64,000 bases of DNA from Periweissella fabaria (GTDB lineage Bacteria; Bacillota; Bacilli; Lactobacillales; Lactobacillaceae), in contig NZ_CAKKNS010000001.1 in assembly GCF_918814575.1 (NCBI RefSeq), positions 1 to 64,000 on the forward strand, read 5' to 3'. Below the pieces are notes generated by a model. It saw only the letters and a list, made by a program, of their open reading frames with translations, had not been told where the DNA came from and made no database searches. Positions 33,768 to 49,915 of the stretch are shown here, in pieces (within the stretch, counting starts at the first letter, position 1; each line of letters starts with the position of its first letter). The position numbers and the translations under genes are program-made.

Positions 33768-33802
33768 AAAAACAGCTTGGAAATTTTTCCAAGCTGTTTT
33801 TG
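33768..33802 (+). terminator. Terminator of glyQS, shared with the convergent gene
   Basis: AAACAGCTTGGAAA and TTTCCAAGCTGTTT are followed by T residues; symmetric flanks. Confidence 0.9.
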
Positions 33803-33851: not shown

Positions 33852-34886
33852 TTAATAGTTAATATTTGCTTGCAACTGTTGAATTAAGGCGCTAACTAAA
33901 GCACAGGATTCTAAGAAATTCGTTACAATAATTGGTTTAAGGGAAGCAGAAGTTTGTTGTGATTGGGCAACTGCCATGGCAATGCTGGCATCGTTACCCA
34001 TTATTTTAACAGCGGTTACGGCAACCGCATCCGGTGTTGAGCTACTACCGGTGGTTGTTAGTTCGGTAATAATTGTCCGTAAATCAGTCACCATTAAATG
34101 CAATGTGTTATGCACATCGGCAATGCCAAGGTGGGCTGGTTTACTAAAAAACTTATTACCAGCACTGAAAGTAATTTCATAAGCGAGACTAATATTTTGC
34201 GCTAGATTTGCTTCAAAATCATCTGGTGTATCTCGTTGTGTGGGAAGTGGTGCATGGTTAATTGGTAATTCCAGTAATTGCGGATAGGCAGTATTAATAC
34301 TTTGAAGATCGTGCTCGATTGTATTAAGCCAAGTTGTTAATTTAAGCATCCGGTGTTCTGGGGCAATATGTTGCATAAATGGCGCATTTATTACCGTTTT
34401 TTTGAGCGTTTGGAGGCTCGTATTTAACTGTCGAATTTGATAAATTAAGCTTTTAATTGCAGCAGCAGCTACGATATTAGTAACCGTCGGAAAGATTGCC
34501 GTTGGTACTAATGAACAATCAATATCTGTCGAACTAATCGCAATGAGCGGATTAATTTGACTACATTTTGCGATGATTAGCTGATTAACCCGGGTATTTA
34601 CTTGGGTAACTGCATCTTCACGATAAATGTGGATTGGGAATAACTTTGCTGTTGCAAAATCATCTAGTGTTAGAAGCTGTTCACAGGATTGAATAACTAA
34701 AGCGCCAATATTTGGATCAAGAACGCGTGCGTCAATATTGCAACGCGCGGCAGCTCGCTTAGTGTGAAGTAAAGCACGGACAACTTGAATTGGCATCGTT
34801 GGGCCAGTCATTGCTAAAGGATTTAACAGTTGTGGTGCTTCGCTAATCGGGGAGACAGGTTCTTCGGCAGTGTTAGTTAATATCAT
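33852..34886 (-). CDS. Aspartase/fumarase-superfamily protein lacking catalytic motifs (probable pseudoenzyme)
   Basis: 344 residues against about 470 for aspartate ammonia-lyase. Collinear matches are visible: VVRALLHTKRAAARCN near 35-50, FPIHIY at 83-88, then the C-terminal IMGNDASIAMA at 295-305 and LKPIIVTNFLES at 316-326. The active-site segments are gone. The GTSTNMN loop reads AVTQVNTRVN (92-101) and the HPNDHVNxSQSTND segment reads about 112-125 without the motif. The GSSxMPxKxN signature is reduced to GSSSTPDA (280-287), with the stretch after it deleted. The C-terminal domain is absent. There is no stop or frameshift, so it looks maintained. No function is assigned; a binding or regulatory role is speculation. 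Confidence 0.7.
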   Translation of the reverse strand: MILTNTAEEPVSPISEAPQLLNPLAMTGPTMPIQVVRALLHTKRAAARCNIDARVLDPNIGALVIQSCEQLLTLDDFATAKLFPIHIYREDAVTQVNTRVNQLIIAKCSQINPLIAISSTDIDCSLVPTAIFPTVTNIVAAAAIKSLIYQIRQLNTSLQTLKKTVINAPFMQHIAPEHRMLKLTTWLNTIEHDLQSINTAYPQLLELPINHAPLPTQRDTPDDFEANLAQNISLAYEITFSAGNKFFSKPAHLGIADVHNTLHLMVTDLRTIITELTTTGSSSTPDAVAVTAVKIMGNDASIAMAVAQSQQTSASLKPIIVTNFLESCALVSALIQQLQANINY

Positions 34887-35041
34887 GAATAGGTCCTTCT
34901 TTCAAAAGTGAAATTTATGTTAGTTTACTAACCATAATAGAACTTATCCCTGGTAATGTAAAGGGGAGTGCTTGCTAGCAAGATTGAAATGCGATGTAAA
35001 TAAAAGGTTGAAAGTAAAATAAATAATTATTGTAAAGTTTA

Positions 35042-35055
35042 TGAAAACGCTTTCT
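35042..35055 (+). promoter_or_regulatory. cre site upstream of the 6-phospho-beta-glucosidase
   Basis: TGAAAACGCTTTCT fits the CcpA operator consensus. It lies just upstream of the -10 TATAAT at 35074-35079 and overlaps the -35 region, which predicts repression on preferred sugars. Confidence 0.8.
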
Positions 35056-35102
35056 TTTGTAAATGAGATAAATTATAATGAATTTGTTCTTAGTAAAATT
35101 AA

Positions 35103-36566
<1,464 letters not shown>

Positions 36567-37764: not shown

Positions 37765-38643
37765 ATGCGCGATATACAGAATTATTTTGATAGACACTTA
37801 TACATTGGACGGATTGGGACGGCATTTATTTATGCAGTAATGGTTTCGGTTGCTTTGAATTACTTTTGGACACCGGGGCATATCTATTCATCTGGGATTA
37901 CCGGGTTAGCTCAATTGTTTGACTCATTATCAAAAGGAATATTTGGCTTTAATATTCCAGTCTACATTTTTTTATTCTTGTTTAACGTACCATTGATTAT
38001 TGCATCTTGGCGCGCAATTGGGCATCGCTTTGCAATTTTTACGACAATTGCCGTTGTTTTGGCCTCAGTTATGATTCGTGTAATTAATGAACCTGTAACG
38101 CTTACCCATGATCCGTTAATTGATGCCATTTTTGGGGGCTTAGTAAATGGATTTGCGACAGGTTTGGCCTTACGTAATGGAATCTCAACAGGTGGCTTGG
38201 ATATTATTGGTATTTTAATTCGTAAGCGAACAGGCATGCGGATGGGGATTGTTAATATGACCTTTAATGCCTTCATTATGTTAGCAGCTGGGTTAGTCTT
38301 TGGTTGGCAGTTTGCATTTTATTCAGCTATCGGGGTGTTTGTTAATGCCAAGGTGATTGATACAGTTTATACCCGTCAGCAACGGATGCAAGTGATGATT
38401 ATTACTGATCGACCAAAAACAGTCGTTGATTCAATTCAAAATCATTTACGGCGTGGAATTACAATTATTCACGGCGCAGAAGGGGCCTACAAGCACGATG
38501 ACAAAAATGTTTTATTCACAGTTATTTCTCAATATGAGCAATATGAAGTGACTGAGGCATTAGGTGAATCAGATCCAAATGCTTTTATGTCAATGTGGCG
38601 GGTTGATAAAATTCAAGGGAATTTCTATGAGCCTAAATTATAA
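37765..38643 (+). CDS. YitT family membrane protein
   Basis: 292 residues with five or six transmembrane helices in the first 200 and a cytoplasmic C-terminal DUF2179 domain (about 205-285; VMIITDRPKTVVDSIQNHLRRGITIIHGAEGAY). Signature motifs are NYFWTPGHIYSSGITGLAQL and ISTGGLDIIG. It may be a transporter; the family function is not established. It is a paralogue of 41934-42839. A TATAAT near 37716 and RBS AAAGGGA precede it. Confidence 0.88.
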   Translation: MRDIQNYFDRHLYIGRIGTAFIYAVMVSVALNYFWTPGHIYSSGITGLAQLFDSLSKGIFGFNIPVYIFLFLFNVPLIIASWRAIGHRFAIFTTIAVVLASVMIRVINEPVTLTHDPLIDAIFGGLVNGFATGLALRNGISTGGLDIIGILIRKRTGMRMGIVNMTFNAFIMLAAGLVFGWQFAFYSAIGVFVNAKVIDTVYTRQQRMQVMIITDRPKTVVDSIQNHLRRGITIIHGAEGAYKHDDKNVLFTVISQYEQYEVTEALGESDPNAFMSMWRVDKIQGNFYEPKL

Positions 38644-41933: not shown

Positions 41934-42839
41934 TTACCGGTTTGAATTATTGGGTTTAACTTTTGGAATTAAGGGCTTACGTGGGCGATTATATGTGAAA
42001 CCTTCACCGAGGGTTTCTTGGACATTAAGAATCGTTGTAAACGCGCGTTGGTCAATGCGGGCAATTAATTGCCGTAGTTGATGTAATTCACCTGGTGAAA
42101 CAACAACATAGACAGTTAAGCGTGGTTCACGAGTATATGATCCTTCAGTATTGAAATAACTAGCACCACGATTCATTTCGCTGTACACTGCACTGACGAT
42201 TTCTTCAGGTTTGTCAGTCATAATTAGGACCCCACGAGCGGCATAAGCTCCTTCTTGGGTAATTGTGACAATTCGTGAGTAGACATATGATGCCAGAATG
42301 GTATACATCATGTGGAGGATGTCGATGTAAACCAATGAAACAAGCATGACAGTAATATCAAGTAAAAGCAGGCTTTTTCCCATTGGTATCCCGTATTTTT
42401 TTTCAAAGATACGTGCAATCACATCTGTTCCGCCAGTTGTACCACCGAAGCGATATACAATTCCAAGACCTGCTCCGGCAATTACCCCAGCGATAATCCC
42501 TGAGATGAACATATCGTGGTGTAAATTGAGTTGGAAGGGAAATGTTTGCCAGATATAAATCCAAAATGATAACGCAAAAATGCCGTATAAAGTATAAACC
42601 AATGATTTACGACCTAAAATTCGCCACCCAATCAAAACTAAAGGAATATTTAAAACTAATGTTGCAATTGCCGGATCAAATCCGGTGAGGGCCCGCAAGA
42701 TCAAAGTGATCCCTGTGACACCACCTTCAGCTAAGCTATTTGGGATGTTAATGTTAACCAATCCCCAGGCATAAATTGCAGTCCCAATGGTAAACATGAT
42801 TAAGTCAAGTGGCCGAATTTTTTCATTTTCTTGGACCAT
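41934..42839 (-). CDS. YitT family membrane protein
   Basis: 301 residues. Transmembrane helices lie in about 10-190, with the family motifs NINIPNSLAEGGVTGITL and FGGTTGGTDVIARI. A C-terminal DUF2179 domain (about 200-285) is present. It is the second YitT paralogue here, on the opposite strand to 37765-38643, and the two are clearly divergent. RBS AGGAGGC lies upstream on the minus strand. It probably forms a two-gene unit with the 86-residue gene. Confidence 0.88.
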   Translation of the reverse strand: MVQENEKIRPLDLIMFTIGTAIYAWGLVNINIPNSLAEGGVTGITLILRALTGFDPAIATLVLNIPLVLIGWRILGRKSLVYTLYGIFALSFWIYIWQTFPFQLNLHHDMFISGIIAGVIAGAGLGIVYRFGGTTGGTDVIARIFEKKYGIPMGKSLLLLDITVMLVSLVYIDILHMMYTILASYVYSRIVTITQEGAYAARGVLIMTDKPEEIVSAVYSEMNRGASYFNTEGSYTREPRLTVYVVVSPGELHQLRQLIARIDQRAFTTILNVQETLGEGFTYNRPRKPLIPKVKPNNSNR

Positions 42840-48913: not shown

Positions 48914-49915
48914 ATGGAAAAAGAAAATGTTACAATTTATGATGTTGCCCGCGAAGCAGGGGTTTCAATGGCGACAGTTTCACGGGTTGTGAACGGCAAC
49001 AGTAATGTGAAACAAGCGACAAAAGACAAAGTTTTGGCAGTGATTGATCGTCTGGATTACCGTCCGAATGCTGTTGCGCGTGGCTTAGCGTCAAAGAAAA
49101 CTACAACCGTTGGCGTCATCATTCCAGATGTAACCGATATGTTCTTTTCTGAACTAGCCCGTGGGGTTGATGATGTAGCGTCAATGTATCATTACAACAT
49201 TATTTTGGCCAATTCTGATGACTCTGGTACAAAAGAATTACAAGTTTTAGAAAATTTATTAGCAAAACAAGTCGATGGTATTGTATATATGGGTAATGGA
49301 TTACGGGAACAATTACGGAACCAATTTAGCCATTCTAATGTACCAATTGTTTTAGCAGGTGGGGTTGATGAAGTTAATCAAATACCAACAGTTAATATCG
49401 ACTACACAGCAGCAACTAAGGATGCAGTAACTAAGTTAATTAAAAACGGTCATACCCAAATTGCTTTCATTCCAGGTAACATGCAACAAGCGATTAATCA
49501 AAAATATCGCTTGCGTGGTTACCAAGAAGCCTTGGAAGAAGCTGGAATTGCATTTGATGAAACAATGGTATTTGATGCCCAATATACTTATAATGCCGGC
49601 TTTGAGTTAGCCAACGAGTTATACGCAACGACTGCTACAGCCGCCTTTGTTGGGGCAGATGAATTAGCAGCTGGGATCCTTAATGGATTAACTGACCGTG
49701 GTGTCAATGTACCGGAGGATTTTGAAATTATTACCGCCATTAACACGAAGTTAACCCAAATTACGCGGCCACAATTATCATCAATTAGCATTCCAATGTA
49801 TGATATGGGAGCGGTTGCGATGCGGATGCTCACAAAATTAATGGATAAAGAAAATATTGAAAACGGACATTTATCTTTACCATATGGAATTATTAGTCGC
49901 CAAACAACACGATAA
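48914..49915 (+). CDS. ccpA: Catabolite control protein A
   Basis: 333 residues, LacI/GalR family. The helix-turn-helix (VTIYDVAREAGVSMATVSRVVNGNSNVK) is followed by the hinge helix PNAVARGLASKKT and the periplasmic-binding-like core. With HPr-Ser-P it represses or activates carbon genes at cre sites; three such sites lie in this window. A TATAAT at 48866-48871 is the likely -10. Confidence 0.95.
   Translation: MEKENVTIYDVAREAGVSMATVSRVVNGNSNVKQATKDKVLAVIDRLDYRPNAVARGLASKKTTTVGVIIPDVTDMFFSELARGVDDVASMYHYNIILANSDDSGTKELQVLENLLAKQVDGIVYMGNGLREQLRNQFSHSNVPIVLAGGVDEVNQIPTVNIDYTAATKDAVTKLIKNGHTQIAFIPGNMQQAINQKYRLRGYQEALEEAGIAFDETMVFDAQYTYNAGFELANELYATTATAAFVGADELAAGILNGLTDRGVNVPEDFEIITAINTKLTQITRPQLSSISIPMYDMGAVAMRMLTKLMDKENIENGHLSLPYGIISRQTTR

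Follow-up and report, generated by a model that had tools for sequence, protein, structure and literature searches.

The window analysed here, a stretch of 64,000 nucleotides from Periweissella fabaria, carries on its minus strand an intact open reading frame that begins with an ATG at 34886, stops at 33852 and encodes a protein of 344 amino acids, as the earlier note had proposed. The gene lies between a gene read as glyS (694 amino acids) and a divergent 6-phospho-beta-glucosidase gene, and the features of the locus are as follows.

33852-34886, minus strand: candidate pseudoenzyme derived from FumC, 344 amino acids (open reading frame, Lyase_1 and fumC_II profiles, orthologues, model)
34934-34962, minus strand: promoter TTTACA-17-TATTAT, whose two boxes are shared by the three species apart from one base of one -10 box (cross-species comparison)
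34894-34903, minus strand: ribosome-binding site GAAAGAAGGA, with the same sequence in all three species (cross-species comparison)
33768-33801, plus strand: palindromic terminator between glyS and the pseudoenzyme gene, which may serve both (sequence scan)

Promoter and ribosome-binding site are conserved within an intergenic region that has partly diverged. Because a promoter scan gave no excess over shuffled sequences (3 versus 5.2 sites), the weight of the promoter rests on this conservation. On the side of the 6-phospho-beta-glucosidase gene, the upstream sequence TGAAAACGCTTTCT at 35042-35055 is also identical in the three species; we take it, by the CcpA consensus, to be a cre-like box, and a ccpA gene lies at 48914-49915. 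The window further holds two genes for YitT-family-like membrane proteins, 3.3 kb apart, one at 41934-42839, confirmed by Pfam, and the other at 37765-38643, read from sequence.

The homology of the 344-residue protein to the lyase superfamily is far above chance. Pfam Lyase_1 (PF00206) matches it with an E value of 4.9e-11 and 43 bits, above the gathering cut-off of 27; a search at E 0.001 misses the P. fabalis copy. Among the NCBIfam models, fumC_II (TIGR00979) comes first with 3.1e-27 and 95.5 bits (equivalog cut-off 664.75), ahead of PRK12425 and PRK12273, while the aspA model scores 42.1 bits (5.2e-11; cut-off 681.2); that all these scores fall far below the model cut-offs is to be expected of a highly diverged copy. 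When the protein was compared with PDB sequences by phmmer, class II fumarases were on top (7miw, 1.2e-17) and aspartases scored far lower. The assignment to the aspartase/fumarase family made in the earlier note is borne out by these matches, whereas its comparison with aspartate ammonia-lyase gives way to better matches with fumarase profiles and structures: the protein is a member of the superfamily derived from class II fumarase (FumC), not from aspartase.

The genome of P. fabaria (1,926,695 bases in 19 contigs, 99.99% complete) contains three Lyase_1 genes, namely an intact fumC on contig C5, one read as purB on contig C6 and the pseudoenzyme gene on contig C1, and the same search of this assembly found no aspA, for which the earlier note had suggested looking. 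The genome's own FumC retains its signature (GSSIMPGKVNP), and it is this intact enzyme, encoded elsewhere in the genome, that supplies catalysis. Its gene is unlinked to that of the pseudoenzyme, and the two proteins share 28% identity. Their alignment, together with the orthologues described below, reveals how the active-site segments have changed.

34590-34619, minus strand, residues 90-99: former substrate-binding motif TGSGTQTNMN, now EDAVTQVNTR (alignment with own FumC)
34497-34529, minus strand, residues 120-130: former NDHVNMGQSSND segment, rewritten (alignment with own FumC)
34356-34388, minus strand, residues 167-177: former GRTHLQDATPL, now NAPFMQHIAPE (alignment with own FumC)
34230-34259, minus strand, residues 210-219: former GGTAVGTGLN loop, now NHAPLPTQRD, largely conserved among orthologues (alignment)
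34032-34058, minus strand, residues 277-285: short linker in place of the excised signature (SS) loop (alignment)

At the catalytic Thr-His positions (GRTHLQ) all three orthologues have P169 followed by F, L or A at 170. The loop with the signature GSSxMPxKxN, which contains the catalytic Ser, Lys and Asn, is likewise missing from all three, a stretch of about 33 residues in FumC that includes the entire loop being reduced to about 8. The remaining linker reads TTGSSSTPDA in P. fabaria, and its GSS had been taken for the start of a shortened signature; since the other two orthologues have AAGYGSTPDA and ATGNGSVPDE at this place, that resemblance is due to chance and no signature has been inherited. 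Further on, the alignment with the own FumC has no counterpart for SLMTVTALSPHIGY onwards, and both alignment and model have the protein end at the point equivalent to about residue 390 of E. coli FumC, so that domain 3 of the three-domain (D1-D3) architecture is lost, while the N-terminal part of fumarase is replaced by a new tail. The earlier note was right in finding the C-terminal domain missing and the catalytic motifs gone. Given a sequence lacking the catalytic residues, the lid residues and domain 3, catalysis by the known fumarase route is excluded, and the protein is supported as a conserved, catalytically dead pseudoenzyme candidate.

The fold was modelled with AlphaFold2 from an alignment in which the three orthologues were joined by segments of twelve proteins, each a fumarase or an aspartase. 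This alignment was chosen after a scan of cut points; in some MAFFT alignments the helix preceding the lost loop, or that helix's tail, was out of place. In the resulting model (pLDDT 82.3, pTM 0.82), residues 22-344 superpose on residues 31-390 of E. coli FumC, that is, on domains 1 and 2, with Z 32.1 and an rmsd of 2.7 over 315 aligned residues. Of the best 50 structure matches the first 40 are fumarases, and aspartases appear among the remaining ones at Z 30. With only the three orthologues in the alignment the model had a poor pLDDT of 39, and the predicted Lyase_1 superfamily fold of domains 1 and 2 therefore leans on the family rows in the alignment and on sequence homology. An unrelated fold, which would have spoken against the family assignment, was not seen.

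Several elements of this predicted core, and one outside it, deserve to be listed separately.

34845-34886, minus strand, residues 1-14: N-terminal tail MxLTNTAEEPVSPI, 13/14 invariant, predicted to be disordered with pLDDT ~30 (model, conservation)
34131-34163, minus strand, residues 242-252: retained equivalents of the human interface residues A308 (A242) and H318 (H252) (alignment)
33966-34034, minus strand, residues 285-307: helix predicted by the model, counterpart of the helix at the fumarase tetramer centre, 20/23 invariant (model, conservation)
33936-33938, minus strand: K317, equivalent of human K409 (alignment)

According to PMC5806193, tetramerisation of fumarase is driven by domain 2, with helix 14 at the centre of the tetramer; in the human enzyme A308 and H318 lie in the interface, their mutation shifts the enzyme from the tetrameric to the dimeric state, and H318 pairs with K409. 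We read the helix that follows the signature loop as this helix 14. The model predicts that the core helices of the fumarase homotetramer are retained, and the interface equivalents A242, H252 and K317 are present in all three orthologues, whereas the pseudoenzyme has L and T in place of the intersubunit pair D319-Q254. Segment 290-308, invariant at 18 of 19 positions, ranks first among the 19-residue windows, on a par with 289-307; this peak is not significant, as 20% of permutations give a window of 18. Conservation also extends to the former active-site loops, where residues 171-222 are invariant at 40 of 52 positions and rewritten stretches such as QHIAP(E/K)HR and INH(A/T)PLPxQRD are shared among the orthologues. 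At the other end of the protein, residues 1-26 are predicted to be disordered, and the invariant tail is followed by residues 15-19, none of which (0/5) is invariant. Since third bases are identical in 8 of the 13 invariant codons of the tail, versus 87 of 222 gene-wide, constraint at the nucleotide level in the first 14 codons is possible.

Orthologues with the same deletions occur, at the same locus, in Periweissella fabalis (74% identity) and P. ghanensis (73%), and across the three species the gene has no stop, frameshift or internal gap. Estimates of dN/dS by NG86 are 0.121, 0.144 and 0.092 for the three species pairs, values that are rough because dS (1.3-2.1) is near saturation; for six flanking genes they range from 0.009 to 0.076. 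Between the copies of P. fabaria and P. fabalis, identities at codon positions 1, 2 and 3 are 0.81, 0.91 and 0.54. In 500 runs of a neutral simulation to the same nucleotide identity, amino acid identity averaged 0.525 (sd 1.7%, maximum 0.570) and every run acquired at least 2 stops, as against an observed identity of 0.749 and zero stops. The dN/dS values and the simulation together indicate that the pseudoenzyme is under selection, weaker than that on its neighbours. Its identity among the carriers is 73-74%, compared with 83-99% for the six flanking proteins and 98-99% for FumC. This selection is purifying and acts at the level of the protein.

To place the protein among its relatives, a tree was built from 34 rows (3 pseudoenzymes, 23 Lactobacillaceae FumC and 8 others including two aspA), omitting the argininosuccinate lyase rows L040 and L041 and entering the duplicates L033 and L039 once. 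The three pseudoenzymes form one clade (support 100/100), and together with the 23 Lactobacillaceae FumC they make up one side of a branch with support 100/99.7. In AU tests, a clade of the pseudoenzymes with the two aspA rows is disfavoured (p-AU 0.026) and one with the FumC of the congener G002 is rejected (p-AU 0.025); a placement as sister to the FumC of their own lineage is not rejected (p-AU 0.252). The pseudoenzyme descends from Lactobacillaceae FumC, on a branch that is very long (8.3 changes per column, with odd composition) and with a bootstrap that has not settled. What the earlier note had put forward as an intact pseudoenzyme from an aspartate/nitrogen-linked family is accordingly supported in its first half, with three orthologues, purifying selection and a genuine fumC in the genome, and not supported in its second, as the protein groups with Lactobacillaceae FumC and aspA is absent. 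A phage origin was rejected, no relative being found in a pattern search of IMG/VR, and so was a plasmid origin, all matches in the 92 of 92 plasmid records lying below 60% identity; the 15 listed of these 92 are 22-27% identical, and those that carry an annotation are fumarases or an aspartase.

The three carriers were found among five genomes of the genus, P. fabaria included. Out of 397 family genomes sampled, four pass E 1e-45: besides the three carriers there is G202, a genome in which a full-length FumC with an open frame of 464 amino acids gives the match. Out of 395 order genomes sampled only P. fabaria passes 1e-50. Both sets were drawn from larger groups, which makes the absence elsewhere a sample-level result, and the best reading is that the pseudoenzyme is specific to Periweissella among the genomes sampled. 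In congener G002, glyS is followed directly by an amidase gene, and in congener G001 by two other small open reading frames and then the amidase gene. Since both the pseudoenzyme and the 6-phospho-beta-glucosidase genes are absent from these two congeners, the pair (33852-36566) was probably gained or lost as one block. Relatives of the 6-phospho-beta-glucosidase are common, being present at E 1e-150 in 214 of the 397 family genomes. Among 12 of its loci searched, a fumarase-like neighbour is present only in the 3 carriers; a donor of the gene pair was sought among the 9 nearest non-carrier loci, none of which has such a neighbour in the stretch examined.

We propose that in the ancestor of the three Periweissella species a copy of FumC would have lost domain 3 and every catalytic residue together with the signature loop, while keeping a folded core of domains 1 and 2. 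Judged by its sequence, the product would no longer convert fumarate. Because the helices of domain 2 that build the tetramer are retained and conserved, it most likely still forms an oligomer, and we infer that it is expressed and that its most likely role is non-catalytic: as an oligomer that binds or scaffolds, it would present its conserved flexible N-terminal tail and the remodelled face of the former active site to a putative partner. This reading is favoured by what is left over, namely the oligomer core, the conserved disordered tail and the remodelled but conserved active-site face, and we hold it with about even confidence. Against it speak the model's reliance on fumarase and aspartase rows, the conservation peak that is not exceptional, the lost D319-Q254 pair and an evolution faster than that of the flanking proteins and of FumC (98%).

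The main rival supposes that the protein is a regulatory pseudo-subunit which joins mixed tetramers with FumC through its domain 2 helices and lowers or tunes fumarase activity. It owes this place to the architecture of the enzyme, each active site of which takes residues from three of the four subunits (PMC5806193), and it is consistent with the retained, conserved domain 2 core and with the presence of fumC in all 3 carriers. In addition, the FumC of the carriers (rows L001, L036 and L037) has in all three cases Met instead of Gly at position 24, in the conserved WGxQT motif, a position at which 26 other FumC rows have Gly in 23 and a gap in 3 (the comparison omits the aspA rows L032 and L038). 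This change is a lead only, as the three carriers share one ancestor, and its link to the pseudoenzyme was made post hoc. The low identity of 28% between the two proteins and the lack of linkage of their genes count against mixed tetramers, as does the fact that the own FumC is itself changed at the interface residues A308, D319 and Q254. We entertain such tuning as a tentative alternative, and still more tentatively its stricter form, in which a pseudofumarase of domains 1 and 2 would be a dedicated regulatory subunit of FumC tetramers and, through allostery or by poisoning them, would control the flux through fumarase in this Periweissella lineage. A small molecule bound, or a new activity housed, in the remodelled pocket, where His, Arg and Asp are conserved in the former active-site loops, would account for the conservation of the rewritten segments and of residues 171-222; it seems unlikely, as two parts that help to shape the pocket in the superfamily, the mobile lid (SS loop) and domain 3, are missing and none of the known catalytic patterns is present. 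A fumC pseudogene in decay that by chance is still open would agree with the large deletions and with evolution faster than that of the neighbours, and is very improbable in view of dN/dS values of 0.09-0.14 at dS >1, identities of 91% at second and 54% at third codon positions, the intact frames in three species and the conserved promoter and ribosome-binding site; neutral decay, in other words, was not seen. Descent from aspartate ammonia-lyase, for which the reach of the aspA match to the C-terminus (34-340) might be cited, is rejected on a fumC_II score twice as high, the 100/99.7 branch and the AU result.

If the non-catalytic binding or scaffold protein is confirmed, P. fabaria would provide a bacterial fumarase pseudoenzyme that is under selection and has lost a domain naturally, and with it a direct test of whether the superfamily's helical core can be reused as a stable scaffold once catalysis and domain 3 are gone. 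It would equally allow a test of whether an active site built from several subunits can be controlled by a dead paralogue. In the open-access literature we found no paper pairing fumarase or fumarate hydratase with pseudoenzyme and, going by titles and the beginnings of abstracts, no description of such a protein.

With class II FumC the protein shares the predicted fold of domains 1 and 2, the long core helices, the GND, NKF, KP and FLES residues and the equivalents of human A308, H318 and K409; unlike FumC, it is without the signature loop, the catalytic Thr-His, Ser, Lys and Asn and domain 3, and it has a new N-terminal tail. Delta-crystallin, a full-length protein of vertebrates whose delta-I form is inactive, is likewise a member of the superfamily kept in a non-catalytic role. 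It derives, however, from argininosuccinate lyase, recruited to the lens (PMC10211241), whereas the P. fabaria protein is a bacterial, domain-deleted copy of fumarase. The same source gives as an example of a pseudo-subunit an inactive homologue of S-adenosylmethionine decarboxylase, which forms activating or inhibiting hetero-oligomers with the active enzyme; here, too, a dead paralogue exists beside an intact enzyme and may enter a mixed oligomer. Finally, the chymotrypsin-treated aspartase 3r6y, going by its title and length, is a solved superfamily core without the C-terminal part, made by a protease, whereas in P. fabaria the gene itself lacks this part, and by analogy it suggests that the core of the superfamily can stand without domain 3.
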